Part shown: positions 38,496 through 54,734 of the stretch, piece after piece
Layout: the number at the start of each line of letters is the position of its first letter
Numbering within the stretch: position 1 is the stretch's first letter
Assembly: GCF_021390495.1 (NCBI RefSeq)
Contig: NZ_JAJEJP010000001.1
Coordinates: 2,976,001-3,040,000 of the forward strand
Reading direction: 5' to 3'
Source of the DNA: Paraburkholderia sp. ZP32-5
GTDB lineage: Bacteria > Pseudomonadota > Gammaproteobacteria > Burkholderiales > Burkholderiaceae
Length of the DNA: 64,000 nt
The notes under the pieces: generated by a model
Databases searched by the model: none
What the model saw: the letters and a program-made list of their open reading frames with translations, nothing else
Told to the model about the DNA's origin: nothing
Made by a program: the position numbers and the translations under genes

Positions 38496-41060
38496 ATGAC
38501 ACACGCTACGCACCCTACGCACGCTACCCAGCCCACGCGGCAACCCACGCCCCAACGCCGGATTGCCGGCTATACGCTGATCGCGGCCGCTGTCCTCGCG
38601 CTGGCCGCGCAAGCCGGATTCGCCCAGCAGATCGAATCCGCGCCGCCCACGGCGGCCACCGCCGCCACCGCGCCGGACGGCGATCCGCCGGGACGCATCG
38701 CGCGTCTGAACTACACGGCCGGCGCCGTGACCACCGAGCCCGCCGGCGCGACCGACTGGTCGTACGCTCAGATCAACCGCCCGCTCACCACCGGCGACCA
38801 GTTGTGGAACGACCAGAACGCGCGTTCCGAGCTTCACATCGGCTCGACCGCGATCCGCCTCGGCCAGAACACCAACCTCGACGTGCTCAATCTCGACGAC
38901 ACCAGCGCTCAACTGAAAGTCGCGCAAGGCACGCTGTCGACGCACGTGCGCGAAGTCGCGCCCGGCTCGTCGTATGAAATCGACACGCCGAACCTGGCGC
39001 TCGGCGTGAACGGCCCCGGCGACTATCGCGTCGACGTCGCGCCGGACGGCAGCAGCACCACGGTCACCGTGCGCGACGGCAGCGCGATCGCATACGGCGA
39101 CGGCGGCCAGGTGCCGCTTGCGGCGGGCCAGCAGATCCGCTTCGCCGGCACCAACCTGCAACAGCTCGCCGACGCGCGCGCGCCGGCGCCCGACGAACTC
39201 GATCAGTGGGCCGCCAGCCGCGACGCCACCGAAGACCGCTCGGTATCGGCGCGCTACGTATCGCGCGATATCCCCGGCTATGAAGACCTCGATGCCAACG
39301 GCACGTGGCGCGACACCCCGCAGTACGGCGAGGTGTGGACGCCGCGCGCGACGCCGGCCGGCTGGGCGCCGTATCACGACGGTCACTGGGTGTGGCAGGC
39401 GCCGTGGGGCTGGACCTGGGTCGACGATCAGCCGTGGGGCTTCGCGCCCTACCACTACGGCCGCTGGGTGCAGTTCGACGACAGTTGGGCATGGGTGCCG
39501 GGCCCGCTCGAAGCCGAAGCACCGCCGCCGGTCTATGCGCCCGCGCTGGTGGCGTTCGTCGGCGACGATGATGGCGGCGTCGACTGGGGTGTGAATCTGG
39601 CGATCGGCGGGGCGATCGCGGCCGGCGTCGCCTGGTTCCCGCTCGGCCCGGGCGAACCGTGGCATCCGCATTGGGGCGGCCACGACCGTTGGAGCCCCGG
39701 CTACTACAACCGCGTGAACCGCGCGACCATCGTCAATGACTATCACCGTGACGTGAATATTCACAACACGTACGTGAACTATCACGCGCGCGGCGGCCTG
39801 ACGGCGGTGCCGGCGACGGCCTTCGTGCATGGCCAGCCGGTCGGACGCTTCGCGCAGAAGGTCGATCCACGGCAGTGGCACAACGCGCGGATCAACCCCG
39901 GCGCACCGGGGATTGCGCCGGTGCGCGAGAGCTTCGGCTCCGATTTGCGGCGCGCGAACTATCGGCCGCCGGTGAGCGTTGCCGCGCGGCCGGTCGTCGC
40001 GACGCGCAATCCGGCGATGCCGGCCGCGTACCGCGACGACCTCGCGCAGCGCTTCGCGCAAAGCGGCGGACGCGTGCCGGGGGGCGGTCAGCCGGTCGTG
40101 CGGACTTCGGTGCCCGCGCATATGACTGGGGCGCCCGGCGCGGCACCGATCGCGAGAGTGCGGGTCGTGCAGTCTCATGTGCCGGGTCGGCCGCCGGGAA
40201 TGGCCGCGGGGACGCCGGGTACGCCTGGCGCGCCGCATGGTATCGAGCAGGCTGGGCAGCGGCCCGCCGACGGGCTGGCACCGGGCTCGCACGGCGACGC
40301 GCCGCAAGCGCGGCCGGGTATGCCGCCGTCGATGGCCGGCAATGGGCGTCCGCCGCAGCCGGGTCAGGTGGAACAAAGGGAGCCGGGGGGAAGAACGGGA
40401 CAGGCAGGACAAGCGGCACAAGCCGGACCCGCCGACGGACATCCGTCCAACGGCGTGCCGCGGCCACCGCAGCCGGGCGGCGGGAATCCGCTTGCCGCGG
40501 CGCAAGCCGGCGCGCAGCAGCACGGCGCCCCCCAGCAATGGGGCGCAGTCGGACGATCCGAGCCGGCCTGGACGCGGCCGCATCCGCCGATGGCCCAGCA
40601 GACGCCGCGTGCGGATCAGCCGGGTAATCAGCCGCAGCTTGGCGTCGCGCATCCGCCTGAGAATGCAGCCGCGCAGCAGCAGGCGCGTCAGCCGGAGGGC
40701 CGTGCGCAGCCAATGCAACCGATGCAGGCGCCGCCGCATGCCGAGCCGCAACAGCAGGCCCAGCAGCCGCGTTTCGACGCGCGTCCGCAGCCGATGCGGC
40801 ACCCGCCCCGCGAGCAACCAGCACGGCCCGAACCGCAGTTCCAGCAAGCGCAGCAGCCGCGTCCTCAGCCGATGCAGCAGCCGCGCCCCGAACCGCAGCA
40901 GCAGCAGGTCCAGCAGCCGCATATCGAGCAACGGCCGCAGATGCAGCAGCCCCGCGCTGAACCGCGTCCGCAGCAGGTTCAGCAGCAGCGCGCGCAACCG
41001 CAGCCGCAGCATGCCGAGCAGCACGGCGGCGGCAATCACGACGAGCATCACAAGGGCTGA
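38496..41060 (+). CDS. FecR domain / DUF6600 protein with Pro/Gln-rich tail
   Basis: An 854-residue exported protein. A signal peptide occupies about residues 20-44. A FecR-like domain (about 70-185) contains NARSELHIGSTAIRLGQNTN. Then come tandem Trp-rich DUF6600-type units (about 265-345), for example GWAPYHDGHWVWQAPWGWTW and GFAPYHYGRWVQFDDSWAWV, and a hydrophobic patch near 365-385. The last 330 residues are low-complexity Pro/Gln/Ala/Arg. Such proteins are envelope-located; the function is unknown and no sigma factor is adjacent, unlike classical FecR. A terminator follows. Confidence 0.85.
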   Translation: MTHATHPTHATQPTRQPTPQRRIAGYTLIAAAVLALAAQAGFAQQIESAPPTAATAATAPDGDPPGRIARLNYTAGAVTTEPAGATDWSYAQINRPLTTGDQLWNDQNARSELHIGSTAIRLGQNTNLDVLNLDDTSAQLKVAQGTLSTHVREVAPGSSYEIDTPNLALGVNGPGDYRVDVAPDGSSTTVTVRDGSAIAYGDGGQVPLAAGQQIRFAGTNLQQLADARAPAPDELDQWAASRDATEDRSVSARYVSRDIPGYEDLDANGTWRDTPQYGEVWTPRATPAGWAPYHDGHWVWQAPWGWTWVDDQPWGFAPYHYGRWVQFDDSWAWVPGPLEAEAPPPVYAPALVAFVGDDDGGVDWGVNLAIGGAIAAGVAWFPLGPGEPWHPHWGGHDRWSPGYYNRVNRATIVNDYHRDVNIHNTYVNYHARGGLTAVPATAFVHGQPVGRFAQKVDPRQWHNARINPGAPGIAPVRESFGSDLRRANYRPPVSVAARPVVATRNPAMPAAYRDDLAQRFAQSGGRVPGGGQPVVRTSVPAHMTGAPGAAPIARVRVVQSHVPGRPPGMAAGTPGTPGAPHGIEQAGQRPADGLAPGSHGDAPQARPGMPPSMAGNGRPPQPGQVEQREPGGRTGQAGQAAQAGPADGHPSNGVPRPPQPGGGNPLAAAQAGAQQHGAPQQWGAVGRSEPAWTRPHPPMAQQTPRADQPGNQPQLGVAHPPENAAAQQQARQPEGRAQPMQPMQAPPHAEPQQQAQQPRFDARPQPMRHPPREQPARPEPQFQQAQQPRPQPMQQPRPEPQQQQVQQPHIEQRPQMQQPRAEPRPQQVQQQRAQPQPQHAEQHGGGNHDEHHKG

Positions 41061-41205: not shown

Positions 41206-42177
41206 TCAGATCGCCATCGGCGCCGTCAGCGGCTCGTGGTGCCGATAGCCGACCAGCGAGAAATCCGCCGGCTCGATCTTCTCGAGCCATTCCGGCTCGT
41301 ACACGCCGGTTTTCGCATACTCGGGCACACGCTCCGAAATCGCGAGCTGGGGACTCTCGTACGGTTCGCGCGTCAGCTGCTGCTGCAGCATGTCGAGCTG
41401 ATTCTCGTAGATGTGCGCGTCGCCGATGAAGTAGCTGAACCAGCGCGGCGTATAACCGGTCAGGCGTCCGACCAGATGCAACAGCGCCGCGCCCTCGGTC
41501 AGATTGAACGGCGTGCCGAGCCCGACGTCGTTGCTGCGGATGTACAGACACAGCGAAATTTCGCGGCGCGCGACGTTCGGCAGGAACTGGTAAAGCAGAT
41601 GGCAGGCCGGCAGCGCGATCTGGTCGAGTGCCGCCGGATTCCACGCGTGAAACAGAATGCGTCGATCGGCGGGATTGCGCATGATCGTATCGAGGCACTG
41701 ACGCAACTGATCGATCGCCTTGTACAGCAGCACTTTCGAGCGGCCATCTTCGTCGAACTGCGTGATCACGCGAAAACCGCGCGCCTGCGCATCGGCGAGC
41801 TGCGCGCTCGCGCCGGCGTCGAGCACCTTGTACGCGGGCCATTGGCGCCATTGCACGCCATACACGTCGCCGAGATCGTCAGGGCCTTCGCGATACGGAT
41901 TAGCGAGCCACTGCTCGTTCTGGTTCGCGTTGCCGTCCCACACCTTGCAGCCGAGCGCGCGGAAATCCGCGGCACTGCGCGATGCGCGCAGAAACCCGAT
42001 CAGTTCGCCGATCGCCGACTTGAACGCGAGCTTCTTCGTGGTGACCGCGGGGAAGCCTTGCTGCAGATCGAAACGCAGCATCGCACCCGGCATGCTGATG
42101 GTGCGGATGCCGGTGCGGTTCTCCTGCCACGAGCCGGTATCGAGAATCGTGCGAACGAGCTCCAGGTATTGTTTCAT
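41206..42177 (-). CDS. thyA: Thymidylate synthase
   Basis: A 323-residue ThyA, which methylates dUMP to dTMP with methylenetetrahydrofolate. The catalytic cysteine lies in [30 protein letters not shown] near the start, [13 protein letters not shown] and [10 protein letters not shown] are typical. It is longer than E. coli ThyA (264 residues) through internal segments (about residues 85-155), a known variant class. Start at [10 protein letters not shown] (42177). Its functional partner folA lies 10.5 kb away beyond the amyloid-like block. Confidence 0.96.
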
Positions 42178-42556
42178 GCGGTTTCCTTCGACGAGGCACG
42201 GCCACGCGCCACGAAATTGGGCAAAACTCGATTCTAACAAGCGCGACCGGACGACGCCTCGCGATGGCGTATGGCATCGGTCAATCGAAGGGAGACGTTC
42301 AAGCGGAGAAGTCCGCGACGCGAAGAAGCTCTGCGAAGGGACATACACCGACCGACATGGACGCGCGCAACGGCGCGATAAGGTGAAAAGCGGCAATGAC
42401 ATGCTGTGCTGATGCGCGGCGAACATCTCGCCGCACCCAAGCTCAACCCGTCAACATAGCGGAACCATCCGGCAACGACCACGCGGCGCCTCAATGCCCT
42501 TCAGCCGCGCGGCAACGGATGCTCACGGCGCGGCCCCGCACCGCGCCTTCACACAC
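42178..42556. other. 379-bp intergenic region upstream of thyA
   Basis: Between the thyA start and the end of the sigma-54 activator gene, both on the minus strand. It must hold the thyA promoter and the end of the activator transcript. No clear -35/-10 pair, hairpin terminator or gene is seen. Confidence 0.3.
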
Positions 42557-43951
42557 TCAAAGATGCTGTACCGAAGCCGGCAAATCGCCATGCGGCGCCG
42601 ACATCGGCTCGCTTTCCATATGCCGCATCCCATGCGAGCACAGCAGCCGGTACAGCGTGACGCGCGAGATACCAAGCTCCTGCGCCGCGTCGCCAAGCCG
42701 CCCGCGATGACGCAGCAACGCAAGCTCGATCGCCTGCCGTTCGGCCGCTTCGCGCGCCTGCGCGAGCGACACCGGCACGATCTCCACATACTCGGCAAGT
42801 TCGAGATCGCGCGCGGTGATTGCGCGTCCTTCCGACATCACGATCGCGCGCCGTACCCGGTTGATCAGCTCACGCACGTTGCCCGGCCAGCCGTAGTTAT
42901 GCAGTGCCGCGATCGCATCGGGCGCGAAGCCGCGCAAGCGGCGGCTCGCATCTTTCTTGAAACGCTCGAGCATGTGGCGCGCGAGCAGTTCGATGTCCTT
43001 GCCGCGCGCGCGCAGCGGCGGCTCGTCGATCTGCAACACGCACAGACGGTGATAGAGGTCCGAGCGGAAACGCCCTTCGATCATCGCCGCGGTCATGTCC
43101 ACATGGGTGGCCGAGATGATCCGCACATCGACATCGATCGCCGTGTGTCCGCCGAGCCGTTCGACCTTGCGCTCTTGCAAAAAGCGCAGCAGGCTCGCCT
43201 GGCTCTCCAGCGGCAGATCGCCGATTTCATCGAGAAACAGCGTGCCGCCATTGGCCGCTTCAACGCGGCCGATCTTGCGTTGATTCGCGCCGGTGAACGC
43301 ACCACGCTCATAGCCAAACAGCTCGGATTGCAGCAGATGCGGCGGAATCGCACCGCAGTTGATCGGCACGAACGGCGCGTTTCGACGCGCCGAGCGCTCG
43401 TGAATCGCCACCGCCGTGAGTTCCTTGCCGGTGCCCGATTCGCCGGAGATGAACACCGGCGCGTCGGTCATCGCGACTTTGCGAATCGAACGGAACAACG
43501 CGAGCATCGCGTCGCACGAGCCGACCATCTCGCCTTCGGCACCCTGCGAGCCGTCATGCGCCGCGCTTTCGCTCAGCGAGATCATCCCGTACGCGTGGCC
43601 GACCGAATCGACGATGCGATCGCCCGAATACGGCACCGTGACGTAATCGAAACAGTAGTCGCGCACGAGCCGGCGCAACGCGGCGTCCTGCAATTGTCCC
43701 GGCGTGGTGGCCGCGACCCAGCCGACATTCGGCATGGTCAGGCAGGATTCGAAAGCAGCGATTTCGTGCGGCTGGAAATCGCTGGAAAGATCAAGCAGGC
43801 CGCCCGCGGCCATTCCGGCGCGAACCGCCCGGCGCGCATCGCGCGCGGATCCTACGACTTCGACATGCCAGCCACGCTGCAGAAAACGCGTATTCAGCTC
43901 CGCGCTAGGATCGCGCGAAACGTAAATCAGTTGCCGCGTTGCGGGTTCCAT
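42557..43951 (-). CDS. VpsR-type sigma-54-dependent activator (copy 1)
   Basis: A 464-residue bacterial enhancer-binding protein. The N-terminal domain (about 1-125) resembles a receiver but lacks the usual phosphorylation site, as in VpsR-type, often c-di-GMP-responsive, regulators. The AAA+ domain (about 140-370) has Walker A GESGTGKE, the sigma-54-contacting loop GAFTGA and Walker B GGTLFLDEIGDLP. A Fis-type helix-turn-helix lies at the C-terminus (LGDAAQELGISRVTLYRLL). GAGAGGA precedes the start. It is divergent from the Fap-like operon and paralogous to the activator at its end, so control of that operon is inferred. Confidence 0.92.
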   Translation of the reverse strand: MEPATRQLIYVSRDPSAELNTRFLQRGWHVEVVGSARDARRAVRAGMAAGGLLDLSSDFQPHEIAAFESCLTMPNVGWVAATTPGQLQDAALRRLVRDYCFDYVTVPYSGDRIVDSVGHAYGMISLSESAAHDGSQGAEGEMVGSCDAMLALFRSIRKVAMTDAPVFISGESGTGKELTAVAIHERSARRNAPFVPINCGAIPPHLLQSELFGYERGAFTGANQRKIGRVEAANGGTLFLDEIGDLPLESQASLLRFLQERKVERLGGHTAIDVDVRIISATHVDMTAAMIEGRFRSDLYHRLCVLQIDEPPLRARGKDIELLARHMLERFKKDASRRLRGFAPDAIAALHNYGWPGNVRELINRVRRAIVMSEGRAITARDLELAEYVEIVPVSLAQAREAAERQAIELALLRHRGRLGDAAQELGISRVTLYRLLCSHGMRHMESEPMSAPHGDLPASVQHL

Positions 43952-44358
43952 TATTCAGATCCTCTCGTCAACGAACGTTAAGGATGACGCATGCACCTGA
44001 AACTGCGGTTCAGACACGCTGACTCATTCGGAATTCGCAAATCGCAAAAACCGAACGGCCATTCCATTCCGTGCGGACAGCTGATCCCCAAGAAAGCGGC
44101 GTGTGTGTTTGAGACGACCTGTTATGGGCCTTTTTTAAAAATTCAAAGCCGTTTTCGAGAGCTTACTATACGTGCGCGAGTTCGAAAACAATTATGCGAA
44201 TTTAATCGGGGATCCTTTATCCATCAGGGTTTCAGCCACACCACAACGATTTATTCAGCCGACAAATAAAACATTACTGGAAGCGCTTTTACTGATGTTT
44301 CGCCGCAAGGTAGTTCGTACCTTTCGGTTTAACGAATTATAGGTATTTTCTGCTGCGC

Positions 44359-44376
44359 CGTTTCAGCGCTGAAACG
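44359..44376. promoter_or_regulatory. Perfect 18-bp palindrome, candidate activator-binding site
   Basis: CGTTTCAGCGCTGAAACG is an exact palindrome centred about 85 bp upstream of the -24 element, a usual distance for an enhancer-binding protein. A T run follows on the plus strand, so a terminator-like role is also conceivable, but no gene precedes it on that strand. Confidence 0.6.
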
Positions 44377-44450
44377 TTTTTTTCCGATTTCGCGCGCATT
44401 ACTCCCCGTTATGTCGGTCATGTCCAGACGCATCAAAGGATTGCGACCGA

Positions 44451-44466
44451 TGGCACATGTTTCGCT
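44451..44466 (+). promoter_or_regulatory. Predicted sigma-54 (-24/-12) promoter
   Basis: TGGCACATGTTTCGCT matches the sigma-54 consensus, with GG at 44452-44453 and GC at 44464-44465 separated by exactly 10 bp. It lies 30 bp before the first cluster gene and next to two sigma-54 activator genes. Confidence 0.75.
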
Positions 44467-44495
44467 AAATGGCGTGCACCAGGGGAGACAACATC

Positions 44496-44969
44496 ATGCG
44501 CCTCGTTTTCCGCATCGATCTGATTGGCCGGACCTCATATTTCGCGATCTGCGCGGCGCTCGCGTTAAGCGCGCTGGCGCCCGCCGCGAGTGCCCAGACC
44601 GCACAAGCCGCGCCGGCCGGATCCGCCACGCTGGCGGAATCCAGCGATGCGCCCGGCACCTCTTCAGCCAATGAGCAACCCGCCGCGCTCGCCACCACGG
44701 ATAGCAACAACCAGCTCGCCGCGAATCCGACCAGCACACCCGACGATGCTGCAGCGGTGAACGATATTTCGCTCGACGACCAGGTGCTGTCGCGGCAACG
44801 CGGCGGCGCGGTCGGCATGTTGATGGTCGCCGCAACGCCGCGGCTGATGCAAGGCGGCGGCAACCAGGTGACGTTGTGGGACGAGATCGCCCCGCCCTCG
44901 CCGCTGCCCGTGCCGGTCGACGCCGCGCGCGCCGCCCAGGGCAACGTCGCGACGTACCAGAGAAAGTAG
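44496..44969 (+). CDS. Secreted protein, first gene of Fap-like cluster
   Basis: A 157-residue exported protein with a signal peptide (about 10-33, YFAICAALALSALAPAASAQ), then a Ser/Ala/Asn-rich low-complexity stretch (34-88). A conserved-looking segment, ISLDDQVLSRQRGGAVGMLM, spans residues 91-110 and contains a double glycine at 103-104. The C-terminus is Pro/Ala-rich. It has no family I can name; position corresponds to FapA, the small first protein of Pseudomonas fap operons. Start at 44496 after AGGGGAG, 30 bp behind the sigma-54 promoter. Confidence 0.75.
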   Translation: MRLVFRIDLIGRTSYFAICAALALSALAPAASAQTAQAAPAGSATLAESSDAPGTSSANEQPAALATTDSNNQLAANPTSTPDDAAAVNDISLDDQVLSRQRGGAVGMLMVAATPRLMQGGGNQVTLWDEIAPPSPLPVPVDAARAAQGNVATYQRK

Positions 44970-45091
44970 CCAGCACCAGACAGAACCACAAGCAGTGCAG
45001 GACCGGCGCCGCGCCGCCTACGCAAGCATCAGACACGGCAGGCCGGCGGGAGTCAGGGCACCTCAGGGCACAACAGGGAAAGGACCGGAAC

Positions 45092-45640
45092 ATGACTACC
45101 AACCTTCAGACGCCGCGCGCCTTCTGGCCGCCGGCGGCGTCGCTGGACGGCGCGCGCGCCAACCGGGGTGCGCTGGTGGCCGGCGCCACGATTCTCGCCG
45201 CACTCTTCAGCGCGACCCTGGCCGGTCCCGCATGCGCCGAACAGGTCGCCAATCCGGGCGACATCATCGTCGAGCGCAACGTCACGCCGCGCGACGCATT
45301 CGTTCCCGTACCACGCGACCAGGACCCGGTCGGTGTGCGCGCCACCACGTTCCCGGCCAACTCGTTCAACCCGGCGATCGCCACGCTCGTCGGCGACTCC
45401 GATCTGACCAACGCGCACGGCTCCACTGGTGTCGCCCAGGGCGGCGTGTTGAACGGCACCGGCATGCAGGCGGTCGCGCAGATTCTCAGCGGCAAGGCGA
45501 CCGGCAGCAATGTCGCGCTGAACGCCGGCGGCATCGGCGCGCCGGCGCCGGGGATCGGCGGCACGATCAGCTCGTCGGTGACGGGCGCGCTCGCGCCGTT
45601 GTCGAACGTGCTCGGCGGCGCACTCGGAGGGATGAAATGA
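45092..45640 (+). CDS. Secreted protein, second gene of Fap-like cluster
   Basis: A 182-residue exported protein with a long signal region (about residues 20-50, ending AGPACAEQ). The mature part contains LVGDSDLTNAHGSTGVAQGG, which shares a D-x-x-L motif with three neighbours. It ends in a Gly/Ala/Ser/Leu-rich tail (SNVLGGALGGMK). No known domain is recognised. It starts at 45092 with AGGA upstream and overlaps the next gene as ATGA, which supports an operon. Confidence 0.75.
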   Translation: MTTNLQTPRAFWPPAASLDGARANRGALVAGATILAALFSATLAGPACAEQVANPGDIIVERNVTPRDAFVPVPRDQDPVGVRATTFPANSFNPAIATLVGDSDLTNAHGSTGVAQGGVLNGTGMQAVAQILSGKATGSNVALNAGGIGAPAPGIGGTISSSVTGALAPLSNVLGGALGGMK

Positions 45641-46320
45641 GCCCCTTCGCCACCCTGTGGTCCGGCGCACTGACGCAATCGCCGCGCCGCGCTTCGCTAT
45701 GCGCATGCATCGCGTGGGCAGCCTTCGCCGCAACTCAGGCACATGCGCAAGCACAGCCTCAAGCACAGTCGCAGAACGTGCCGGTGATCGGCGCGACCGC
45801 GACGATCGGCACCGGCGCGGGCGCCGGCGTCACCGGCGCGTTCACGGTCAATGAAACGGCCGGGCTCGACAACGCGCAGGCCAACCAGATCACGGTGACT
45901 AATGGCAACAACGGCACGGTCGCCGGCAACGCGAACGCGAGTGTGCAAAGCGCGTCGGTGGCCGCGAACGTCACGCGCGCACAGGCCTCGATCGAAGCCA
46001 ACGCCTTTTTGAATACTTCCGGCGCGGTGCTGGTGAACCAGTCGGCCGGAGCAGGAAATCTGCAGCGCAACAGCACCCAGGTGGGCACTGCGGCGCTCGG
46101 AGTCGAGACCGTCCCGGATAGTGAGCTATCCGCGACGGCCCCGAGAAACGGGAGTCTGGGGCAGTCCAGCTCGATTCGCGACGTCCGCGAGGCCAACATT
46201 TCCAGCAATGCCTTCAGGAATGCGACCGGAATCGTGCAGATCAACCAGGCAGCCGGCGCCGGTAATGCCACGGCAAACAGTTTTGTGCTCCGTCCCCCGG
46301 CGGGCACTTTTTTTAACTGA
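45637..46320 (+). CDS. Secreted repeat protein, FapB/FapE-like
   Basis: A 227-residue exported protein with a signal peptide (about 18-38). Three related short repeats lie at about residues 67-83 (GAFTVNETAGLDNAQAN), 129-146 (GAVLVNQSAGAGNLQRN) and 198-214 (GIVQINQAAGAGNATAN). Their G-x-x-x-x-N-x-x-A-G-x-x-N-x-x-x-N pattern resembles the amyloid repeats of Fap subunits. The protein is rich in Asn, Ala, Ser and Thr and has no Cys in its mature part. A minor amyloid or nucleator subunit is inferred. ATGA overlap with the preceding gene. Confidence 0.72.
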   Translation: MSPFATLWSGALTQSPRRASLCACIAWAAFAATQAHAQAQPQAQSQNVPVIGATATIGTGAGAGVTGAFTVNETAGLDNAQANQITVTNGNNGTVAGNANASVQSASVAANVTRAQASIEANAFLNTSGAVLVNQSAGAGNLQRNSTQVGTAALGVETVPDSELSATAPRNGSLGQSSSIRDVREANISSNAFRNATGIVQINQAAGAGNATANSFVLRPPAGTFFN

Positions 46321-46345
46321 CCACACTTAAGTATCGGAGCGAATC

Positions 46346-47737
46346 ATGAAGCGCACTCTTATTGCCGCAGCCGTTCTCGTCGTCGCATCCGGCAGCGCGT
46401 TGGCCGCGCCGCCCAAAGCCTTCCTGTTCAACACCACGGCCGTGGGCGAGATGGTCGGCGTGGAAGGGATGGTTGGACTGTATGGCTGCGTGCACGTATC
46501 GAGCACGGCCGGCGCGGTGATCAACAACAACCAGTCGGTCAACGTGAACGCGACGCTCGATCCGCAGGCGCAGAGCTATCGGACCGGCTCCATCACGACG
46601 AGCTACAACAACCACTCGAGTTCGGTCAAAGGCGCCGGCGCGGCGTTCGCGTTCACGACCCAGAGCCACTCGAGTTCGAGCTCCGGCTCGCAGGGCTTCC
46701 AGGCCTCGGCCGGCTATGCGTACGGCAATCAGAGCGCCAGCGTGACGGGCGGCGGCTATGAAACGAGCCAGCAGGCAGCGGGCATCGCGGGCGGCTTCTC
46801 GCACACGAGCCAGAATTCCGGCGCCCATATCGCGGCGGGCGGCTCGATCGGTGGCGGCTACAACTACAACGTCCACAACACGCCGTCGCACGGCAATGGT
46901 TCGTTCAGCGCGGGCGCGGGTCTGCACGCCGGCTACAACGAATCGAGCTATTCGAACGCGTCGGGTGTAGCCGGTGGCTTCGAAGCCAGCGAAGCATCCG
47001 GACAGGGCCGCGCCTGGGGCTATAGCGCCAACGAAGGCTCCGGCTTCGCGGCGGTCGGCGAACACTCGTCGGGCTACACGCGCAGCCGTTCGTCGTCGAG
47101 CGACGCATACGGCGCCGCATGGGGTGTCGACGCGACGATGGCCACCACCGACGTGACGACTCGCGGCTCGGTCACCGAGCACATCAACACCCAGGCAGCC
47201 GGCACGCTGACTGCGACGACCGGCACCAACGCGGCCACCAACGTGTCGGGCAACCTCGGCGTGAACATCGCGGAAGGCATCAGCAACGCGCAAAGCAACG
47301 ACGTGTCGCTCGCCTCGGTCGACATCGGCAACGTGTTCGGCAATGCGCAGGTCTTCAACAGCCAGTCCACCAGCGGCAGCGCCCGGATCAACAACTTCAA
47401 CCTCAACGCGTCGGTCGGCAACGGCTCGCTGGCGGGAGTAACGGGCAACGTCGGCGTGAACGTCGCATCCGGTATCGGCAACGTGCAGAACAACAGCCTT
47501 GCCGGCGCCGTGACGACGACCTCGCCGGGCAAGGCGATGACGACCGCGATGGACGCCACGGATGACAACTCGCAGACCGCCGCCATGACGGTCCACGGGC
47601 AATTCCAGGGCACCGCGATGCTCGGCAACGACACGCTGCACGGCGCGTCCGGCAACATCGGCGTGAACATCGCCGGCGGCGCGGGCAACCTGCAGCACAA
47701 CGGTCTGGCGATCGCGGCGCTGAACAGCGGCAAGTAA
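46346..47737 (+). CDS. FapC-like major amyloid subunit candidate
   Basis: A 463-residue exported protein with a signal peptide (1-20, MKRTLIAAAVLVVASGSALA). A Ser/Gly/Tyr/Asn-rich middle (about 80-265) resembles low-complexity fibre linkers. Three strong C-terminal repeats follow near residues 300-317 (GNLGVNIAEGISNAQSN), 366-382 (GNVGVNVASGIGNVQNN) and 436-452 (GNIGVNIAGGAGNLQHN), separated by variable linkers. This matches the repeat-linker design and GVN-A-G-N-Q-N motif of FapC as I know it. It is the largest secreted repeat protein of the operon, so it is the best candidate for the fibre subunit. Confidence 0.75.
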   Translation: MKRTLIAAAVLVVASGSALAAPPKAFLFNTTAVGEMVGVEGMVGLYGCVHVSSTAGAVINNNQSVNVNATLDPQAQSYRTGSITTSYNNHSSSVKGAGAAFAFTTQSHSSSSSGSQGFQASAGYAYGNQSASVTGGGYETSQQAAGIAGGFSHTSQNSGAHIAAGGSIGGGYNYNVHNTPSHGNGSFSAGAGLHAGYNESSYSNASGVAGGFEASEASGQGRAWGYSANEGSGFAAVGEHSSGYTRSRSSSSDAYGAAWGVDATMATTDVTTRGSVTEHINTQAAGTLTATTGTNAATNVSGNLGVNIAEGISNAQSNDVSLASVDIGNVFGNAQVFNSQSTSGSARINNFNLNASVGNGSLAGVTGNVGVNVASGIGNVQNNSLAGAVTTTSPGKAMTTAMDATDDNSQTAAMTVHGQFQGTAMLGNDTLHGASGNIGVNIAGGAGNLQHNGLAIAALNSGK

Positions 47738-47842
47738 GGCGCCGGCGCAGCACCGTCGACAGGCGGGCAGAAGCGGGACAGCAGTCGAAGGACGCGCCGG
47801 CGGCCGCAGAAGCCGCCGGCGCGAATCGGGCAGGAGACCAGC

Positions 47843-48556
47843 ATGACCGGGTTGAAGGTGTTCCCGGCGCTACGTTTCGTCGTGGCGCTGGCAGGCTGCG
47901 CGCTGTGCGCGGATTACGCCGCCGCACAGTCGAGCATCGACACGTCCACGTTGATGGGCGTGCCGCTGAAAAAACCGATCCGTTCGATGAAAGACCTGCG
48001 CTACAGCCATGTCGTCAGTCAGCAGTTCGACTACAGCTGCGGCGCGGCGGCGCTCGCCACCCTCCTCAAGTACGGCTACGGGATCGACATTCCGGAAACC
48101 GAACTGATCAGCCGGATGATGGTTTTCTCCACGCCGGAAGTCGTCGTCAAGAACGGCTTTTCGATGCTCGACATGAAGCACTTCGTCGAGACCATCGGTC
48201 TGCGCGGCCGCGGTTTTCGCGTCAACGTCGACGCGCTCCACCACCTTCAGATCCCCGTGATGGTCCTGATGAACATCGACGGGTACGAGCATTTCGTGAT
48301 CGTCAAGCATGCGCAGGACGGCCGCGTGTTCATCGCGGATCCGGCGCTCGGCAATCGCATCGTGCTCGAAGAGGACTTCGCGAAGACCTGGAACGGTCTC
48401 GTGTTCGCGGTCCTCGGCAAACCCTTCAGGGAGGATTCACCGCTGTTGCAGGACAACGAGTCGCTCGCGTTGAAGCTGCGCGCCAACGCGCTAGCAGCCG
48501 GCACCGCCGCGACGCCCTTTTTCGAGTACGGCTTGAACAAGGCAGACATGTTCTGA
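47843..48556 (+). CDS. C39 family cysteine peptidase, FapD-like
   Basis: A 237-residue exported peptidase with a signal peptide (about 1-28). C39-type catalytic residues are visible: Cys66 in FDYSCGAAALATLLKYGYG, His150 in GYEHFVIVKH and Asp166 in FIADPALGN. It stands alone without an ABC-transporter domain, as FapD does in Pseudomonas. It probably processes other proteins of the operon in the periplasm; the substrate is inferred. It lies between the fibre-subunit gene and another secreted protein gene, 7 bp from the latter. Confidence 0.9.
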   Translation: MTGLKVFPALRFVVALAGCALCADYAAAQSSIDTSTLMGVPLKKPIRSMKDLRYSHVVSQQFDYSCGAAALATLLKYGYGIDIPETELISRMMVFSTPEVVVKNGFSMLDMKHFVETIGLRGRGFRVNVDALHHLQIPVMVLMNIDGYEHFVIVKHAQDGRVFIADPALGNRIVLEEDFAKTWNGLVFAVLGKPFREDSPLLQDNESLALKLRANALAAGTAATPFFEYGLNKADMF

Positions 48557-48563
48557 ACCCATC

Positions 48564-49400
48564 ATGAAGTCACTCCTCAATCCGCTCGGGTTCGTCCTCT
48601 GCGCCGCCGCCTGCGGCGCAAGCGGCGTGGCCTATGCGTCGGACGGCGCCGCCTCGCCGCCGACGCTCGAGCTTTCCGCGCCGCGCGATCCCGCGGCCGC
48701 GCCGCTCAAGGTGCAGCTCGTCGGCGACGACGTGCTCGCGACCCAGACCGGCAAGTACGCCGGCGCGACGATGATCTCCGGCTTCGTGCTCAACGTCATT
48801 TCGCAATGGCACTTGCCCAACGGCGTCAACGCGCTCGCCGAGGGATCGCTCAGCGCCACGCGTAACCGCGCCGGCCAGATGACGAGTTCCGTCAGCACGT
48901 CGGCGAGCGTAACCGGCGGCTCGTACGGCCGCGGCGGCCACGGTGGCCATGCGGGCAACGGCGGCGATTGGGGCGCCAACCCCAATGCGTCCGTCAGCGG
49001 CGGCCAGAGCATCAGCGTGAACGGCGTGTCGCAGATCACCCAGGTGGCCGGCGACCGCAACAGCGGCACCAACTCAGCGTTGATCGATTTCAGCAACAGC
49101 GCGATGACACCCGCCGGCCCCGCCACCGCACCGTCGGCGATGGCCAGCAATTCGACCGGCTCGGTAAAAGCCGGCATTTCGTTCGGCAGCGGCGGCGTCA
49201 GCGTCGCGCTGCAGACACCCGCTGGGCTCGCCACCCAGACTATCGCGCCGGGCAGCGGACAGATCGCCCAGCTGCTGCAGATTGCAGGCAATAACCAGCA
49301 AGTCGCCAACGCCCTGCAACTGCATCTGCAAACCCAGCAGATGTCGGCCGCGATGCTTCGCCAGCTCGGCGTACTACAGGCACTGCAAAACAGGAGATGA
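48564..49400 (+). CDS. Secreted Gly/Ser-rich protein of Fap-like cluster
   Basis: A 278-residue exported protein with a signal peptide (about 1-25). Residues 51-70 (QLVGDDVLATQTGKYAGATM) carry the D-x-x-L cassette shared with other cluster proteins. A His/Gly stretch (YGRGGHGGHAGNGG) lies near residue 122. The C-terminal part (about 220-278) is a Gln-rich amphipathic helix, IAGNNQQVANALQLHLQTQQ. No known family is recognised. Its position between the FapD-like and FapF-like genes corresponds to FapE in Pseudomonas, but sequence similarity is not evident. Confidence 0.72.
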   Translation: MKSLLNPLGFVLCAAACGASGVAYASDGAASPPTLELSAPRDPAAAPLKVQLVGDDVLATQTGKYAGATMISGFVLNVISQWHLPNGVNALAEGSLSATRNRAGQMTSSVSTSASVTGGSYGRGGHGGHAGNGGDWGANPNASVSGGQSISVNGVSQITQVAGDRNSGTNSALIDFSNSAMTPAGPATAPSAMASNSTGSVKAGISFGSGGVSVALQTPAGLATQTIAPGSGQIAQLLQIAGNNQQVANALQLHLQTQQMSAAMLRQLGVLQALQNRR

Positions 49401-49499
49401 AGGCGGGCCGCCACCCGCCGCCGGCAGCACATGCAGGGAAGACACGGCCGCGCACTCGGCAGTCGGAGCGCGCGGCCGGACCACCGGGGGAGTAAGAAG

Positions 49500-50960
49500 A
49501 TGAAAAACGTGTTATCGACCAGGGCGCCGCGCATGGCGCTGGCGGCCATTCCGGCCGCCGTCATGCTATGCGCCCTTTCGCAGACGGCGAGCGCGCAGGC
49601 GCTCGCCGGTCAATCTCTGGAAGACAGACTGAATACTCTGATGCGGGTCGTCGACGAACAGCAGCGGCAAATCCATTCACTCGAGCGCCAGGTCACGCAG
49701 CTCGAGATGGCGCAGCGCGGCCGCGGCATGCCGGGCACCGGCGCGCCCGCGGGCAGCGAGGCGGTCGCCGAGCAGCCCGGCGCCGACGGTCTGCCGATGC
49801 CGTTGCCGCCGCTCGCGCAGGCAACGCCAGGCGCGCCCGCGCCGGGCGGTGCCACGGGCACCGCGACCGGCGTGCCGGTCAATCCGCCGTCGCCCGACGG
49901 CAGCAGTGCCGGCAACACCGCGAGCAGCGGCCCGGGCGGCCTGCCGCCGGCCACCGACGGCAGCGGCGCGGTCGGCCAGACCCAGCGCGCGGCCGAGCCG
50001 GTGCGCACCCAGGCCGAGCAGGCGGTCGTGCAGCGCGAGCACGCGCCGCTGTTCGACCACAAGCTGACGATGGACTTCGGTATCAGCGATACCTACTACG
50101 ATCGACGCCAACTGCAGTTGTCGGGCTTCCTCGCGCTCGATGCGATCTTTCTCGGCAACATCAATCTCGGCCAGACCAAGTCGCACCAGTTGATGGCGGA
50201 CCTCGACACGCGCTACGGCCTGACCGACCGGATCAGCGTCGACGTCGACGTGCCGTACATCTACCGGCGCAGCAACTTCATCGTCGGCGGCGCGGGCGGC
50301 GCGGCCAGCACGCTGTCGGACGCGACGGTGTCGAGCCACGACATCGGCGACGTGAACTTCGGCATCTACTACCAGTTCCTGAAGGAAACCAACAGCATGC
50401 CGGACGTGGTCGGCAGCCTGCGCTTCAAGGCGCCGACCGGCAGCTCGCCGTTCGGCCAGAAGGTCGTGCAGATCGACGCGAACAACACCAATCTGGTCGC
50501 GCCGACCGAGCTGCCGACCGGCACCGGCTTCTGGAACATCACGGCGGGCGTGTCGGTGCTGAAGACCTACGACCCGGTCGTACTGTTCGGTAGCGTTTCC
50601 TATACGTACAACATCGCGCGTTCGTTCGCGGACATCTCGTCGGTAGAGGGGCAGGTCGAACCGGCGACGGTCAAGCTCGGCGACATCGTGCAGTTCGGCG
50701 GCGGCGTCGCGCTGGCGTTCTCCGACAAGGATTCGGCCAGCATCTCGTTCACGATGGCGCTCGAACCCGAATCGAAGACCCGTGCGCCGGGCGGCTCCTA
50801 CACCGGCGTGCCGGGCAGCGAAACGACGGCCGCGGTAATGAATTTTGGCTTGAACCACGTGGTGAACAAGCACCTGACCATCAACGGCGCAGTATCGATC
50901 GGGCTCACGCCCGATGCGCCGAACTTCGTGGTCGGGCTGCGGTTTCCCTACACCTTCTAA
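49500..50960 (+). CDS. Outer-membrane barrel with coiled coil, FapF-like
   Basis: A 486-residue exported protein. A signal peptide (about 12-32) is followed by a coiled coil (about 40-70, LEDRLNTLMRVVDEQQRQIH) and a Gly/Pro/Ala/Ser linker (about 75-175). A long beta-rich domain from about 195 ends in the classic outer-membrane signature FVVGLRFPYTF with C-terminal Phe. This order matches FapF, the gated outer-membrane pore that secretes Fap fibre proteins. Start at 49500 after GGGGGAG. Confidence 0.82.
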   Translation: MKNVLSTRAPRMALAAIPAAVMLCALSQTASAQALAGQSLEDRLNTLMRVVDEQQRQIHSLERQVTQLEMAQRGRGMPGTGAPAGSEAVAEQPGADGLPMPLPPLAQATPGAPAPGGATGTATGVPVNPPSPDGSSAGNTASSGPGGLPPATDGSGAVGQTQRAAEPVRTQAEQAVVQREHAPLFDHKLTMDFGISDTYYDRRQLQLSGFLALDAIFLGNINLGQTKSHQLMADLDTRYGLTDRISVDVDVPYIYRRSNFIVGGAGGAASTLSDATVSSHDIGDVNFGIYYQFLKETNSMPDVVGSLRFKAPTGSSPFGQKVVQIDANNTNLVAPTELPTGTGFWNITAGVSVLKTYDPVVLFGSVSYTYNIARSFADISSVEGQVEPATVKLGDIVQFGGGVALAFSDKDSASISFTMALEPESKTRAPGGSYTGVPGSETTAAVMNFGLNHVVNKHLTINGAVSIGLTPDAPNFVVGLRFPYTF

Positions 50961-50985
50961 GCTGTCCAACGATGCGAGGTCGAAC

Positions 50986-52617
50986 GTGCGTGAATCACCT
51001 CATCTGACCAGTGTGGGCTCCGTGGCGGCAGCGGGATCGCATCTGTCGCTCGCGTCGCCGAAGGAGCGCGGCGGTGCGCTGCCCGCCGATGCATCTGCTT
51101 ATTTGCCGACCAGCTCACCCACCGATTCATCAGCCGACTCGGCCGCTCATTCGCTGGCGGACGGCGCGCCGGATCTGCCGATGGCGGCGGTGCGCCGCGT
51201 AGCCGCCTGCGCGGCCGCGCCCGCCGAACATGCGCAACTCGAGCGCCAGTTGCTGTACGTCGCGCGCACGCCGGACGAAACCCTCGTCGCGCATCTGAAA
51301 AGCCGCGGCTGGCGGGTCGTTGCCGCGCGCTCCGCGCACGAACTCGGCCGGCTCGTGAAGCCCGATATGGCCTGCGCGGGCATCGTCGATCTGGCGAGCT
51401 TCGCGCCGCGCGACATCGGCGGGCTCGAGACCAGCCTGCGTCAGCAGCAGGTCGGCTGGATCGCGCTCGCGAGCGCCGAGCGGCTCAACGATCCGCTGGT
51501 GCGGCGGCTGGTGCGCCACTACTGCTTCGACTTCGTCAAGCTGCCGGTCGCGCACGCGACGATCGATTACCTCGCCGCCCACGCGTTCGGCATGGTCACG
51601 CTGTGCGATCCGGAAGTCGCGCCGCCCGTCAGCGAATCCGGCGACGAGGAAATGGTCGGCACCTGCGAGGCGATGCAGCAGCTCTTTCGGACGATCCGCA
51701 AGGTCGCGAACACCGACGCGAGCGTGTTCATCTCCGGCGAATCGGGCACCGGCAAGGAGCTGACCGCGCTCGCGATCCACGAGCGCTCGCCGCGCCGCAA
51801 GGCGATGTTCACGGCGATCAACTGCGGCGCGATTCCGCATCATCTGCTGCAATCGGAGCTGTTCGGCTACGAGCGCGGCGCGTTTACCGGCGCGAATCAG
51901 CGCAAGATCGGCAGCGTCGAAGCCGCCGATGGCGGCACGCTGTTTCTCGACGAAATCGGCGATCTACCGCTGGAGAGCCAGGCGAGCCTGCTGCGCTTCC
52001 TGCAGGAAGGCAAGATCGAGCGGCTGGGCGGGCGCGAGTCGATTCCGGTCGACGTGCGGATCATCTCGGCGACTCACGTCGATCTCGACTGCGCGATGCG
52101 CGACGGCCAGTTCCGCGCCGACCTGTTTCATCGGCTGTGCGTGCTGCGCGTCGACGAGCCGCCGCTGCGCGCGCGCGGCAAGGACATCGAAATTCTCGCG
52201 CATCACATCCTGCACAAGTTCAAGACCGACAACGCGCGCAAGATTCGCGGCTTCACGCCGTCGGCAATCGAAGCGCTTTACAACTACAACTGGCCAGGCA
52301 ATGTGCGCGAGTTGATCAACCGCGTGCGCCGCGCGATCGTAATGGCCGAGAACAAGCTGATTTCCGCCGAGGATCTCGATCTGGCCGGCTTCACCGAGCA
52401 GGAAAGCATGACGCTCACGCAGGTGCGCGAGGCCGCGGAGAAACGCGCGATCGAGGCGGCATTGCTGCGCCATCGGCACCGCCTGAACGAGGCGGCGACG
52501 GACTTGAATATTTCGCGGGTCACGCTGTATCGGTTGATGGGCGTGCATGGCTTGCGCGAGCCGGGTGGCGCCGATGACAAGGGAGCACCGGCGGCGGACG
52601 AGCCGGCGCGGGGGTGA
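50986..52617 (+). CDS. VpsR-type sigma-54-dependent activator (copy 2)
   Basis: A 543-residue enhancer-binding protein, paralogous over its length to the activator at 42557-43951. The N-terminal receiver-like domain starts near residue 85 (LERQLLYVARTPDETLVAHL), preceded by an extra Ser/Ala-rich leader. Walker A GESGTGKE, the GAFTGA loop and GGTLFLDEIGDLP are intact, and a Fis-type helix-turn-helix (LNEAATDLNISRVTLYRLM) lies near the C-terminus. The GTG at 50986 behind GAGG is preferred; the ATG at 51181 would remove most of the leader. It begins 25 bp after the FapF-like gene and is probably in the operon. Confidence 0.9.
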   Translation: MRESPHLTSVGSVAAAGSHLSLASPKERGGALPADASAYLPTSSPTDSSADSAAHSLADGAPDLPMAAVRRVAACAAAPAEHAQLERQLLYVARTPDETLVAHLKSRGWRVVAARSAHELGRLVKPDMACAGIVDLASFAPRDIGGLETSLRQQQVGWIALASAERLNDPLVRRLVRHYCFDFVKLPVAHATIDYLAAHAFGMVTLCDPEVAPPVSESGDEEMVGTCEAMQQLFRTIRKVANTDASVFISGESGTGKELTALAIHERSPRRKAMFTAINCGAIPHHLLQSELFGYERGAFTGANQRKIGSVEAADGGTLFLDEIGDLPLESQASLLRFLQEGKIERLGGRESIPVDVRIISATHVDLDCAMRDGQFRADLFHRLCVLRVDEPPLRARGKDIEILAHHILHKFKTDNARKIRGFTPSAIEALYNYNWPGNVRELINRVRRAIVMAENKLISAEDLDLAGFTEQESMTLTQVREAAEKRAIEAALLRHRHRLNEAATDLNISRVTLYRLMGVHGLREPGGADDKGAPAADEPARG

Positions 52618-52701
52618 GAGCACGGATGAGAGCGCGGGTGAGCGGAGTGGGTAAGAGCGCGTCGGGTAGAATCGCCCGGTTACCCTCCCTTTTCCCATTC
52701 G

Positions 52702-53202
52702 ATGACGACGCTCACCCTGATCGTCGCTCGCGCCAGTAACGGCGTGATCGGCCGCGACAACGAGTTGCCCTGGCGACTGCCCGAAGACCTCAGGTTCTTC
52801 AAGCGCACGACGATGGGCGCGCCCATCATCATGGGGCGCAAGACGCATGAGTCGATCGGCCGGCCACTTCCGGGACGCCGCAATATCGTCGTGACGCGCG
52901 ATGCCTCACGGCGCTTTCAGGGTTGCGACACCGCCACCAATCTCGACGACGCGCTGCGGCTCGCCGCGCAGGATCAGGCGCCGCAAGCGTTTCTGATTGG
53001 CGGCGCGCAGTTGTACGAGGAAGGGCTGCGTCACGCGGACAAGCTGATCGTCACCGAGATTGCCGCCGACTTCGACGGCGACGCGACCTTCCCCGCGATC
53101 GACAAAAACCTGTGGGAAGAGATCGCGCGCGAAGCGCATCACTCGAACGCGCCGAACGATTTCGACTACGCGTTCGTCACGTATCAGCGCCGGGACGTCT
53201 GA
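52702..53202 (+). CDS. folA: Dihydrofolate reductase
   Basis: A 166-residue DHFR, which reduces dihydrofolate for thymidylate and one-carbon metabolism. The N-terminal [21 protein letters not shown] has the substrate-binding [11 protein letters not shown] following, then [20 protein letters not shown] and [13 protein letters not shown]. Length is standard and no key residue is missing. It is followed by a strong terminator and pairs functionally with thyA on the other side of the amyloid-like block. Confidence 0.97.
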
Positions 53203-53266
53203 GGGTCGCGGCAGCGGGTCTGATCGAGCGGCGCAACACGACGCGGCGCCACGCAACGTGCCAATG

Positions 53267-53305
53267 AAAAACGCCACGCAAGTTTCGTTGCGTGGCGTTT
53301 TTTTT
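53267..53305. terminator. Bidirectional intrinsic terminator
   Basis: A perfect 15-bp stem, AAAAACGCCACGCAA with TTGCGTGGCGTTTTT, around the loop GTTTCG, between the convergent folA and pmbA genes. Confidence 0.95.
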
Positions 53306-53363
53306 ATTACTGCCGGTAGCTGCCGGTCTCGCGGAGTCATGCACCCCGCGCAGTTCTCGCGGC

Positions 53364-54734
53364 TTACTGCCCCGCGATCGTCATCTTCTCGATCAGCACC
53401 GAGCCGATCTGCTTCGTGCCGCGCGTGATCGTGTCCGAGCCGATCGCGACGATATGGCGGAACATCTCCTGCAGCGTGCTCGCGACCGTGATTTCCTCGA
53501 CCGGATACTGGATCTTGCCGTTCTCGACCCAGAAGCCCGACGCACCGCGCGAGTAGTCGCCGGTCACGTAGTTGACGCCCTGCCCCATCAGTTCGGTCAG
53601 CAGCAGACCGGTGCCGAGTTTTTTCAGCATTTCCTCGAAGTCGTCTTCAGGACGCGTGTTGCTGCTGAGCAGCGACAGATTGTGCGAGCCGCCCGCGTTG
53701 CCGGTGGTCTGCATGCCGAGCTTGCGCGCCGAGTACGTGGACAGGAAGTAGCCCTCGACCACACCATCCTTGACGACCGAGCGCTGGCGCGTGCGCACGC
53801 CTTCTTCGTCGAACGGCGCGCTGCCCATCGCGCGCGCGACGTGCGGATCCTCGACTACCTGCACGTGCGGCGCGAACACCGGCTTGCCGAGACTGTCGAC
53901 CAGGAACGAAGTCTTGCGATACAGCGCACCGCCGCTCGTCGCCTGCACGAATGCGCCGAGCAGACCGGCCGCGAGCGGCGCCTCGAACAGCACCGGCACC
54001 TTGCGCGTATCGAGCCCGCGCGCGCCGATACGCGCGAGCGCGCGCTGCGCGGCATAGCGGCCGACCGCTTCGGGATTCGCGAGTTCGTCGGCGCTGCGCG
54101 TCGACGTGTACCAGTCGTCGCGCTGCATGTTGCGGCCGCTGCCGGCGATCGGCGCGCACGCGATGTAGTGGCGCGAATACGGATAGCCGGCGAGGAAGCC
54201 GCGCGAGGTCGCCAGCACGAACTGCGAGTGCTGCGCCGATACGCTCGCGCCTTCCGAGTTCTTGATTTGCGGATCGGTCGCGAACGCGGCGTCTTCGGCG
54301 CGGCGCGCGATTTCGACCGCTTCGTCGGCGGACAGATTCCACGGGTGATACAGATCGAGATCGCGCGGTGCGGTTTCGAGCAGTTCGGCTTCGGCGAGGC
54401 CCGCGCAATCGTCTTCGGCGGTGAAGCGCGCGATGTTGTAGGCCGCCGCGACCGTATCTTTCAATGCCTGCGGCGAGAAGTCCGACGTGCTCGCGTTGCC
54501 GCGCTTGTTGCCGATGAACACCGTCACGCCGACCATCTTGTCGCGGTTGTGCTCGATCGTCTCGACTTCGCCGCGGCGCACCGAGACCGACAGGCCGTCG
54601 CCCTCGGAGATTTCGGTTGCGGCGTCGGTGCCGCCGAGCGCCTTCGCGTGACGGAGGATGTCCGAGGCGATTTCCTTCAGTTCATCCTGGGTATGCGGAA
54701 AAAAGCGCTGCTTGACGTCCATGTCTGCTGCCAT
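53364..54734 (-). CDS. pmbA: Metalloprotease PmbA (TldE)
   Basis: A 456-residue PmbA/TldE protein, the partner of TldD in a heterodimeric protease that matures peptide antibiotics such as microcin B17 and degrades CcdA. TldE is the non-metal subunit. Family segments are [39 protein letters not shown] and the C-terminal [20 protein letters not shown]. Start at MAADMDVKQ (54734). An upstream open frame continues to 55829 but overlaps darP and has no coding support. Confidence 0.95.

Follow-up and report, generated by a model that had tools for sequence, protein, structure and literature searches.

A C39-type leader shared by FapE and a precursor-like protein in the Fap operon of Burkholderiaceae

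Which protein is the substrate of FapD, the C39 peptidase of the Fap functional amyloid system? The catalytic Cys of FapD is required for FapC secretion, FapE is the only Fap protein for which complete N-terminal processing was seen by mass spectrometry, and the FapD target "remains unclear" (PMC5557850); PMC5557850, PMC6173800 and PMC7764130 all describe the role or substrate of FapD as unclear (here and below, statements drawn from cited papers apply to the portions of each that were consulted). We examined this question in a Fap operon of Paraburkholderia sp. ZP32-5, contained in a stretch of 64,000 nucleotides (contig NZ_JAJEJP010000001.1, positions 2,976,001 to 3,040,000, forward strand), hereafter the window, from a 9.09-Mb genome in 4 contigs. 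The Fap system is not new in this lineage, because Burkholderia Fap was reported in 2013 (PMC3792158). The window operon has a further gene in front of fapA, here called X, which is a new component of this known system, and FapD probably acts on X and FapE through a leader present in both. Neither a FapD cleavage site nor an X-like gene was found in the open-licence PMC literature to which the search applied.

The leaders of X and FapE

The genes at this locus are ordered thyA-like, ebp1 (minus strand), X, fapA to fapF, ebp2 and folA-like. A sequence-only reading had taken seven consecutive plus-strand genes (44496-50960), all with signal peptides, for a Fap-like cluster. The seven open reading frames (ORFs) are borne out, and each has a hydrophobic, signal-like N-terminus, as judged by eye without a signal-peptide program. 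Six of them match FapA to FapF, but the first, X, is not a Fap gene, and it gave no useful match in Pfam, NCBIfam or PHROGs; this and the leader common to X and FapE had gone unremarked in the sequence-only reading. The features on which the argument turns are as follows.

44496..44969, plus strand: gene X, 157 aa, signal-bearing, family-less
44772..44807, plus strand: X leader LDDQVLSRQRGG, residues 93-104, C39 double-glycine type
44808..44966, plus strand: predicted 53-residue peptide AVGM...YQRK, with VTLWDE tail (from alignment)
47843..48556, plus strand: fapD, NCBIfam FapD 1e-61; C39 peptidase with signal-like N-terminus and Cys66/His150/Asp166
48564..49400, plus strand: fapE, NCBIfam FapE 8.9e-10
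48720..48755, plus strand: FapE leader VGDDVLATQTGK, residues 53-64, in the register of the X leader

A search for FapD relatives gave 99 encoding stretches, from which 79 distinct loci were retained: a clade of 70 (L003-L072, 73-93% FapD identity) and a distant set of nine (L073-L081, at most 45%). The closest named relatives are Paraburkholderia species, at no more than 93% identity. X and fapA to fapE are present in 70/70 clade loci, and fapF in 67, the other three (L010, L026, L028) stopping before it.

X consists of a Sec-like signal, a variable linker, a leader of the C39 double-glycine type and a conserved 53-residue tail. The pattern used to find the leader demands D-10, L-7 and G-2, and matched in 70/70 loci. 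At its remaining positions, -12 is L in 64 loci and I in 6, and D-11 (68/70), Q-9 (61/70), Q-4 (69/70), R-3 (68/70) and G-1 (62/70) predominate. A free alignment of 18 X sequences showed D-10 (D95), L-7 (L98), R-3 (R102), G-2 (G103) and VTLWDE to be invariant, while the linker is poorly conserved (entropy of 1.4-3.5 bits per column from -42 to -13). The leader agrees with the Leu-12, Leu-7, Gly-2 and Gly/Ala/Ser-1 rule for C39 double-glycine leaders. The groove of LahT holds leader residues -4, -7 and -12, with the cut after the double glycine (PMC6363468), and the X leader fits this register except for Gln at -4.

FapE of the clade contains a leader in the same register, with the form V.D..L..Q[TS]G[KR] in 70/70 loci (one starts with L), including V-12 in 69 and L-7 and G-2 in all 70. 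Beyond the leader, X and FapE are alike nowhere.

To characterize leaders outside the clade, we used 40 regions around stand-alone matches to the FapD model, from a 398-genome draw of the phylum, of which 39 were counted; this sample excludes L134, which is from the genus of the window, and at least five weaker matches (G179, G067, G151, G195, G260). The gene after fapD has L/M-7, R/H-3, G-2 and [GRK]-1, followed by F/Y, in 33 of the 39 loci. Nineteen of these leaders have G-R/K, including all eight whose FapD exceeds the NCBI cut-off, and 14 have the canonical G-G (RGG). This rule was set after the sequences had been seen; as a control, 37 of the 774 ORFs of at least 140 aa in those loci satisfy it, fapE genes included. 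Six loci do not satisfy the rule (L148, L150-L154), and in L151-L153 motifs such as MDDSSLSSVTGQ are found in an upstream gene. FapE with a leader was also recognized by eye in all seven fap loci of other genera (L290-L296). As a separate observation, L135-L147 and L149 are fapD/fapF-like loci without FapB or FapC matches. In these loci the C39 peptidase gene is followed by one with a canonical RGG-F leader, and they are perhaps other export systems of a similar kind.

We built a weight matrix from 29 distinct leaders at the FapE position of loci outside the clade. Its best 12-mer fell on the leader in 70/70 X (scores 9.0-21.7) and in 70/70 clade FapE (6.1-16.7). The median scores were 19.9 for X and 10.1 for FapE, compared with 1.5 for FapA, 2.5 for FapB, -2.1 for FapC, 2.1 for FapD and 2.5 for FapF. 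X ranks first of the 559 window ORFs (19.9; runner-up 13.5), and among 1,400 shuffled X sequences the lowest X score was reached in 0.6% and the median X score in none.

Several observations, mostly on FapE, weigh against a common leader cut by FapD. The -1 residue of clade FapE is Lys or Arg in 70/70, not Gly, and the Arg or Lys at -1 in 19/33 of the outside leaders is odd for a C39 enzyme, the pocket being narrow there. Clade FapE scores overlap the best scores of FapA, FapB and FapC (8.8, 8.7 and 8.3), and the window FapE (8.4) is 11th of the 559 ORFs. Furthermore, the published FapE peptide gap reaches to about residue 70, and the leader of a Pseudomonas-like locus ends near 40-50. Because of the overlap with FapA, FapB and FapC, the evidence for a leader is only moderate in clade FapE, although strong in X. 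A structural model of FapE was too weak to use (predicted local distance difference test, pLDDT, 49), and its helix at 55-62, on the leader, was given little weight.

Presence of the leader and of fapD

Of 299 genomes of the family, 125 have a match to a model of X at E 1e-3. A Fap-type FapD, defined as 223 bits or more, is present in 77 of the 125, and all 77 have the X leader. These comprise 50/50 genomes outside genus g7 and, within g7, 23/27 as first fetched and the remaining four on re-inspection: in three a second X-like gene had been matched and in one no frame, and the X beside fapA bears the leader in all four. Some of the 48 X genomes without Fap-type FapD carry weaker C39 relatives; 43 of the 48 retain the tail with the leader gone (best score 1.9), and two (G632, G564) have no tail frame. 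FapD probably cuts X and FapE, because the leader is present in 77/77 genomes with fapD and lost in 43/48 without it.

The second X-like gene of g7, with an LWDE tail, lies beyond fapF on the opposite strand (L166 6079-6501, L167 5139-5546, L180, L181, L283-L289). The leader of this gene is preserved whole in L167 and L180; the other copies seen have a degenerate one.

The uniformity of the tails is partly by choice, because the search pattern for them included LW. In 30 fap-less g8 genomes, the seven codons of the tail have a proportion of synonymous differences (pS) of 0.26 and of nonsynonymous differences (pN) of 0.011, and the 30 codons before the tail have pS 0.34 and pN 0.22. The X tail is conserved at the protein level even without fap.

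A 97-row tree of ebp1 was used to follow the history of fapD; the best tree requires at least 8 fapD changes, 5 of them forced by supported branches. For the comparison of strict pairs with and without fapD, L009 (Glu at -11) was misread as leaderless, no tail was found in L071, the altered leader of L281 was coded as absent, and two loci, L280 with its fap remnants and L282 at a contig end, were coded as lacking fapD with the leader present.

A limit of the association is that only five strict, independent pairs stand on supported branches: three agree with it, none disagrees and two show no difference (sign test p 0.25), the direction being consistent and the formal test weak. Counting against the association, leader-like sequence persists in three genomes lacking Fap-type FapD: G592, where fap is gone and the sequence is altered at -3; G431, where fragments of fapF, fapC, fapB and fapA persist; and G623, where a contig of 3.8 kb ends. 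Counting against a general role of X, it was not found in any of the 6 fap loci from other genera that could be assessed (L290, L291 and L293-L296; L292 stops short of fapA, and four further genomes lie outside the sample), and an LWDE-type gene is found only in L124 among the 39 outside loci. X is therefore not needed for Fap generally. In a survey of 300 genomes of the order, eight matched X, but in three the matching frames are 641-1046 residues long and were taken as unrelated; outside the family, only the match in G317, the source of L124, looks real.

The operon and its sigma-54 control

The best NCBIfam match of each of the six genes after X is its Fap model, in the order A to F, and none of the six reaches the curated NCBIfam cut-off. 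The operon is filed under Fap despite these scores, because the cut-offs are a calibration of the models and not a biological trait, and its identity as a Fap functional amyloid system is next to certain. The other features of the locus are listed below.

41206..42426, minus strand: thyA-like, a conserved neighbour in relatives; the gene may start further in
42557..43951, minus strand: ebp1, with VpsR, sigma-54 AAA+ and Fis helix-turn-helix (HTH) domains; divergent from the operon, and adjoining X in relatives too
44360..44375, no strand assigned: palindrome GTTTCAGCGCTGAAAC, candidate enhancer (upstream activating sequence, UAS) for the enhancer-binding proteins (EBPs), 91 bp above the -24/-12 site
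44451..44465, plus strand: -24/-12 (sigma-54) promoter-like site TGGCACATGTTTCGC, with a similar site above X in relatives
45092..45640, plus strand: fapA, NCBIfam FapA 3.2e-10; start at the ATG at 45092, frame searched from 45086
45637..46320, plus strand: fapB, NCBIfam FapB 5e-20; three repeats; 4-base overlap with fapA
46346..47737, plus strand: fapC, NCBIfam FapC 2e-13; three C-terminal GNxGVN repeats after a long Ser/Gly-rich stretch
49500..50960, plus strand: fapF, NCBIfam FapF 7e-105; start chosen at 49500, frame opening at 49431; outer-membrane pore with N-terminal helix
50914..52617, plus strand: ebp2, second VpsR/sigma-54 EBP; true start probably downstream of 50914, VpsR from residue 106
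52702..53202, plus strand: folA-like, a conserved neighbour in relatives

The sequence-only reading had proposed profile and structure comparisons, which were run and uphold a Fap-type cluster. Profile hidden Markov models matched the six genes in operon order and left X outside the families searched. The 463-residue protein has its three repeats (GNxGVNxxxGxxNxQxN) at 47249-47299, 47444-47494 and 47651-47701, and these match the FapC fibre structures 9nqd (2.7e-11) and 9u4u (4e-11) by sequence; three related repeats are found in the 227-residue FapB at 45832-45885, 46018-46071 and 46225-46278. The 486-residue barrel matches FapF both by sequence (residues 186-486 to solved FapF 5o65, E 4.4e-81) and by fold, the 18 best Foldseek PDB matches of a low-confidence AlphaFold model (pLDDT 49) all being FapF chains. 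The model draws an N-terminal helix at residues 40-74, and the C-terminal Phe486 is invariant across 18 aligned relatives. The 237-residue FapD aligns with PCAT1 (E 5e-6) and LahT (E 4e-5), and Cys66, His150 and Asp166, noted earlier, align with the Cys, His and Asp of PCAT1.

The N-terminal part of FapC (window 46346-47200) has about 300 residues before the repeats, much of it Ser/Gly-rich, with a single Cys near the start; the solved FapC chains are 226-250 residues long, and the window FapC is 463 aa. A 1023-residue frame elsewhere in the genome has one stretch (G000:C2:400071-400478) 32% identical to FapD, and is perhaps a C39-bearing ABC (ATP-binding cassette) exporter. Upstream of thyA, window 38496-41060 (plus strand) encodes a FecR/DUF6600 protein of 854 residues whose very long tail is rich in Pro and Gln.

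In most relatives the X-fap genes are flanked by thyA-ebp1 on one side and ebp2-folA on the other, within the reach of the contigs; among the exceptions in the clade, L018 has no separate match for ebp2 and L071 none for ebp1, and a close thyA is missing in L067 and L069. No sigma-70 promoters were detected at 41500-53500, and an intrinsic-terminator-like site at 46289-46304, in the gap between fapB and fapC, was dropped, such sites numbering 12 against 10.7 in shuffles.

Both ebp1 and ebp2 encode Sigma54_activat, VpsR and Fis-type HTH domains and a GAFTGA motif, and a VpsR domain was found in 10/10 hand-picked EBPs beside fap or fapD-like loci elsewhere. The P. fluorescens fap genes are driven by RpoN and the neighbouring EBP BrfA (PMC9207406), which senses cyclic di-GMP (c-di-GMP; PMC13101488). 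Control of fap by RpoN and an EBP is thus already published and is not new.

The predicted sigma-54 control of the window operon is backed by a conserved -24/-12 site and palindrome. The -24/-12 pattern alone gives 75 matches in the whole window against 76 expected, so only the place and the conservation of the site count. The best TGGCA[CT]-type site in the 900 bases above X scores 9/10 in 60 loci and 8/10 in 10, compared with best scores of 9 in 71 and 8 in 243 of 1,400 random stretches of equal length. In L032 and L066 the best-scoring match is another site; with a looser pattern a site is found in 70/70 loci. TTTCN6GAAA lies 89-92 bp above the -24/-12 site in 63/70 clade loci, and occurs only 68 times across all 70 loci (1,368,419 bases).

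Beyond the clade, the palindrome and -24/-12 pair is present in 2/2 fap-bearing g8 loci, and in 1/26 fap or fapD-like loci without the X of this clade. The pair is present in 0/6 scanned loci of g7, a genus with X and fap, which tells against the model proposed below. Among fap-less loci the pair persists in 14/16, including L299, which has no X tail; the two without the pair are L173 and L298. Loci L165, L168-L176, L178 and L297 have lost nearly all or all of fap and have kept ebp1 and a leaderless X near folA (with the promoter pair except in L173); in these genomes X is seemingly the remaining neighbouring target of the sigma-54 activator.

Exact copies of GTTTCANNNNTGAAAC occur only twice in the 9.09-Mb genome, at the fap locus and before an AraC-type regulator gene (palindrome 9057-9072 of L308, own genome C1:692000-711500, about 520-550 bp before the gene). 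The frames after the AraC-type gene have ManC-, sugar-transferase-, polysaccharide-export-, Wzc- and GDP-mannose-dehydratase-type domains, as in an exopolysaccharide-type cluster. One to four GTTTCANNNNTGAAAC sites are present in 35/39 genomes of the genus, this one included. One site was examined in each of 29 other genomes. Of these sites, 12 belong to the X-fap promoter, 10 adjoin a related AraC-type gene (43-73% identical), a raw count with no chance baseline, and 7 adjoin neither. The palindrome suggests that amyloid and exopolysaccharide may be switched together, and this shared control is put forward as a hypothesis because the second palindrome showed no convincing -24/-12 partner.

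Proposed mechanism, alternatives and known systems

In our model, sigma-54 RNA polymerase would transcribe the operon from the -24/-12 site at 44451, one or both VpsR-type EBPs activating it from the palindrome (44360-44375). The signal would probably be c-di-GMP, as for BrfA. By homology, FapC would be the main and FapB the minor amyloid subunit, with a chaperone role for FapA and FapF as the pore in the outer membrane. FapD would work in the periplasm following Sec export, recognizing a C39-type leader, approximately [LV]xDxxLxxxxG[GKR], in the two otherwise unlike proteins FapE and X. A cut behind the leader, whose occurrence and timing we infer, would mature FapE and release a 53-residue peptide from X. 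With the leader kept only where FapD is and the tail kept independently, the simplest account is that X would be a precursor cut by FapD, with the tail as the product. FapE would be a general FapD substrate by the same leader, in agreement with its published complete N-terminal processing and the essential FapD Cys (PMC5557850). As a guess, the small X peptide is most likely secreted as part of the matrix or in association with the fibre, and subject to the same biofilm control, because the tail and promoter outlast the loss of fap. The full reading, in which maturation has two steps (Sec, then periplasmic C39), with FapD acting on FapE in Fap at large and on precursor X in Burkholderiaceae to free a secreted matrix or signal peptide of about 50 residues that outlives the amyloid and is co-controlled with an exopolysaccharide cluster, is tentative, with slightly less than an even chance of being right.

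The leader may instead be a docking tag, by which FapD (or FapF) binds X and FapE and hands them over to the pore uncut, as C39-like domains without catalytic activity do in type I secretion. Such docking domains exist (PMC6363468, PMC5557850), and the Lys/Arg at -1 of most FapE differs from the classic double glycine. However, FapD retains its catalytic triad, Pseudomonas secretion needs the catalytic Cys and the FapE N-terminus is processed (PMC5557850), and G-G is found in 62/70 X and RGG in the gene after fapD in 14/39 outside loci. We consider docking without cleavage unlikely. It is less plausible still that X stands outside the Fap system, as an older sigma-54-driven secreted protein beside fap whose leader-like stretch is used otherwise. 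The tail and promoter do outlast fap and other fap loci are without X, but the leader is lost with fapD while the tail stays, is kept in 77/77 genomes with fapD and matches the FapE-position leaders of other families, and X is the first gene behind the operon promoter.

FapF was also weighed as the FapD target by the authors of PMC5557850, which speaks against X and FapE as substrates; its GG/GA sites beside the plug would then be cut, and the leaders of X and FapE would be secondary. A leader-like 12-mer is absent from clade FapF (best at most 4.8 in 67 proteins vs 6.1-16.7 for FapE and 9.0-21.7 for X), and we regard this as very improbable. An ordinary diverged Fap operon, with X a decaying or irrelevant frame and the leader likeness due to chance, would fit the lack of a family and the variable linker of X; it is barely credible given X in 70/70 loci, the invariance of D95, L98, R102, G103 and VTLWDE in 18 aligned X, the tail pS far above pN, and the leader being picked in 70/70 X by a matrix from other families. 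Cleavage of X and FapE by FapD thus remains the preferred reading.

The window operon resembles Pseudomonas fapABCDEF in its six genes in identical order, FapF pore, FapC repeats, C39 FapD and adjoining VpsR-type EBP, and in the imperfect N/Q-rich repeats, three each, of FapC and FapB. It differs in having gene X in front, two EBPs, a FapC of 463 aa with a long Ser/Gly-rich part, and scores below the NCBIfam cut-offs for all six proteins. The Burkholderia fap operons of Dueholm et al. 2013 (PMC3792158) share its lineage and operon type, whereas a gene before fapA, a FapD target and a dedicated regulator are unmentioned in the portions consulted. Like the C39 leaders of exporters of bacteriocins and of ribosomally synthesized and post-translationally modified peptides (RiPPs; LahT, PCAT1, ComA), the leader has Leu-12, Leu-7 and Gly-2/Gly-1, and FapD is related to PCAT1 and LahT; unlike them, it stands behind a Sec-like signal, the peptidase is stand-alone and secreted, and an ABC transporter is absent from the cluster.

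BrfA of P. fluorescens, encoded as the reverse neighbour of fap, and BerB of B. cenocepacia are likewise RpoN-dependent EBPs for biofilm matrix genes; BerB is described without an input domain, whereas the window EBPs have VpsR domains, c-di-GMP binding being suggested for them by analogy with BrfA. The putative pilus system FilABCDEF (NCBIfam) is also similar, the FilB model matching FapD (8e-33) and FilC matching FapF (2e-19), but these matches are weaker than those of the Fap models; the GQ-ending leader-like motifs of L151-L153 may belong there.

With a predicted FapE cleavage site and a second protein whose leader is linked to fapD, the FapD substrate question becomes directly testable. 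If the proposal is true, removal of a C39 leader would take place in the periplasm and need no ABC transporter. The biofilms of Burkholderiaceae would also gain a peptide undescribed in the open-licence PMC literature searched.

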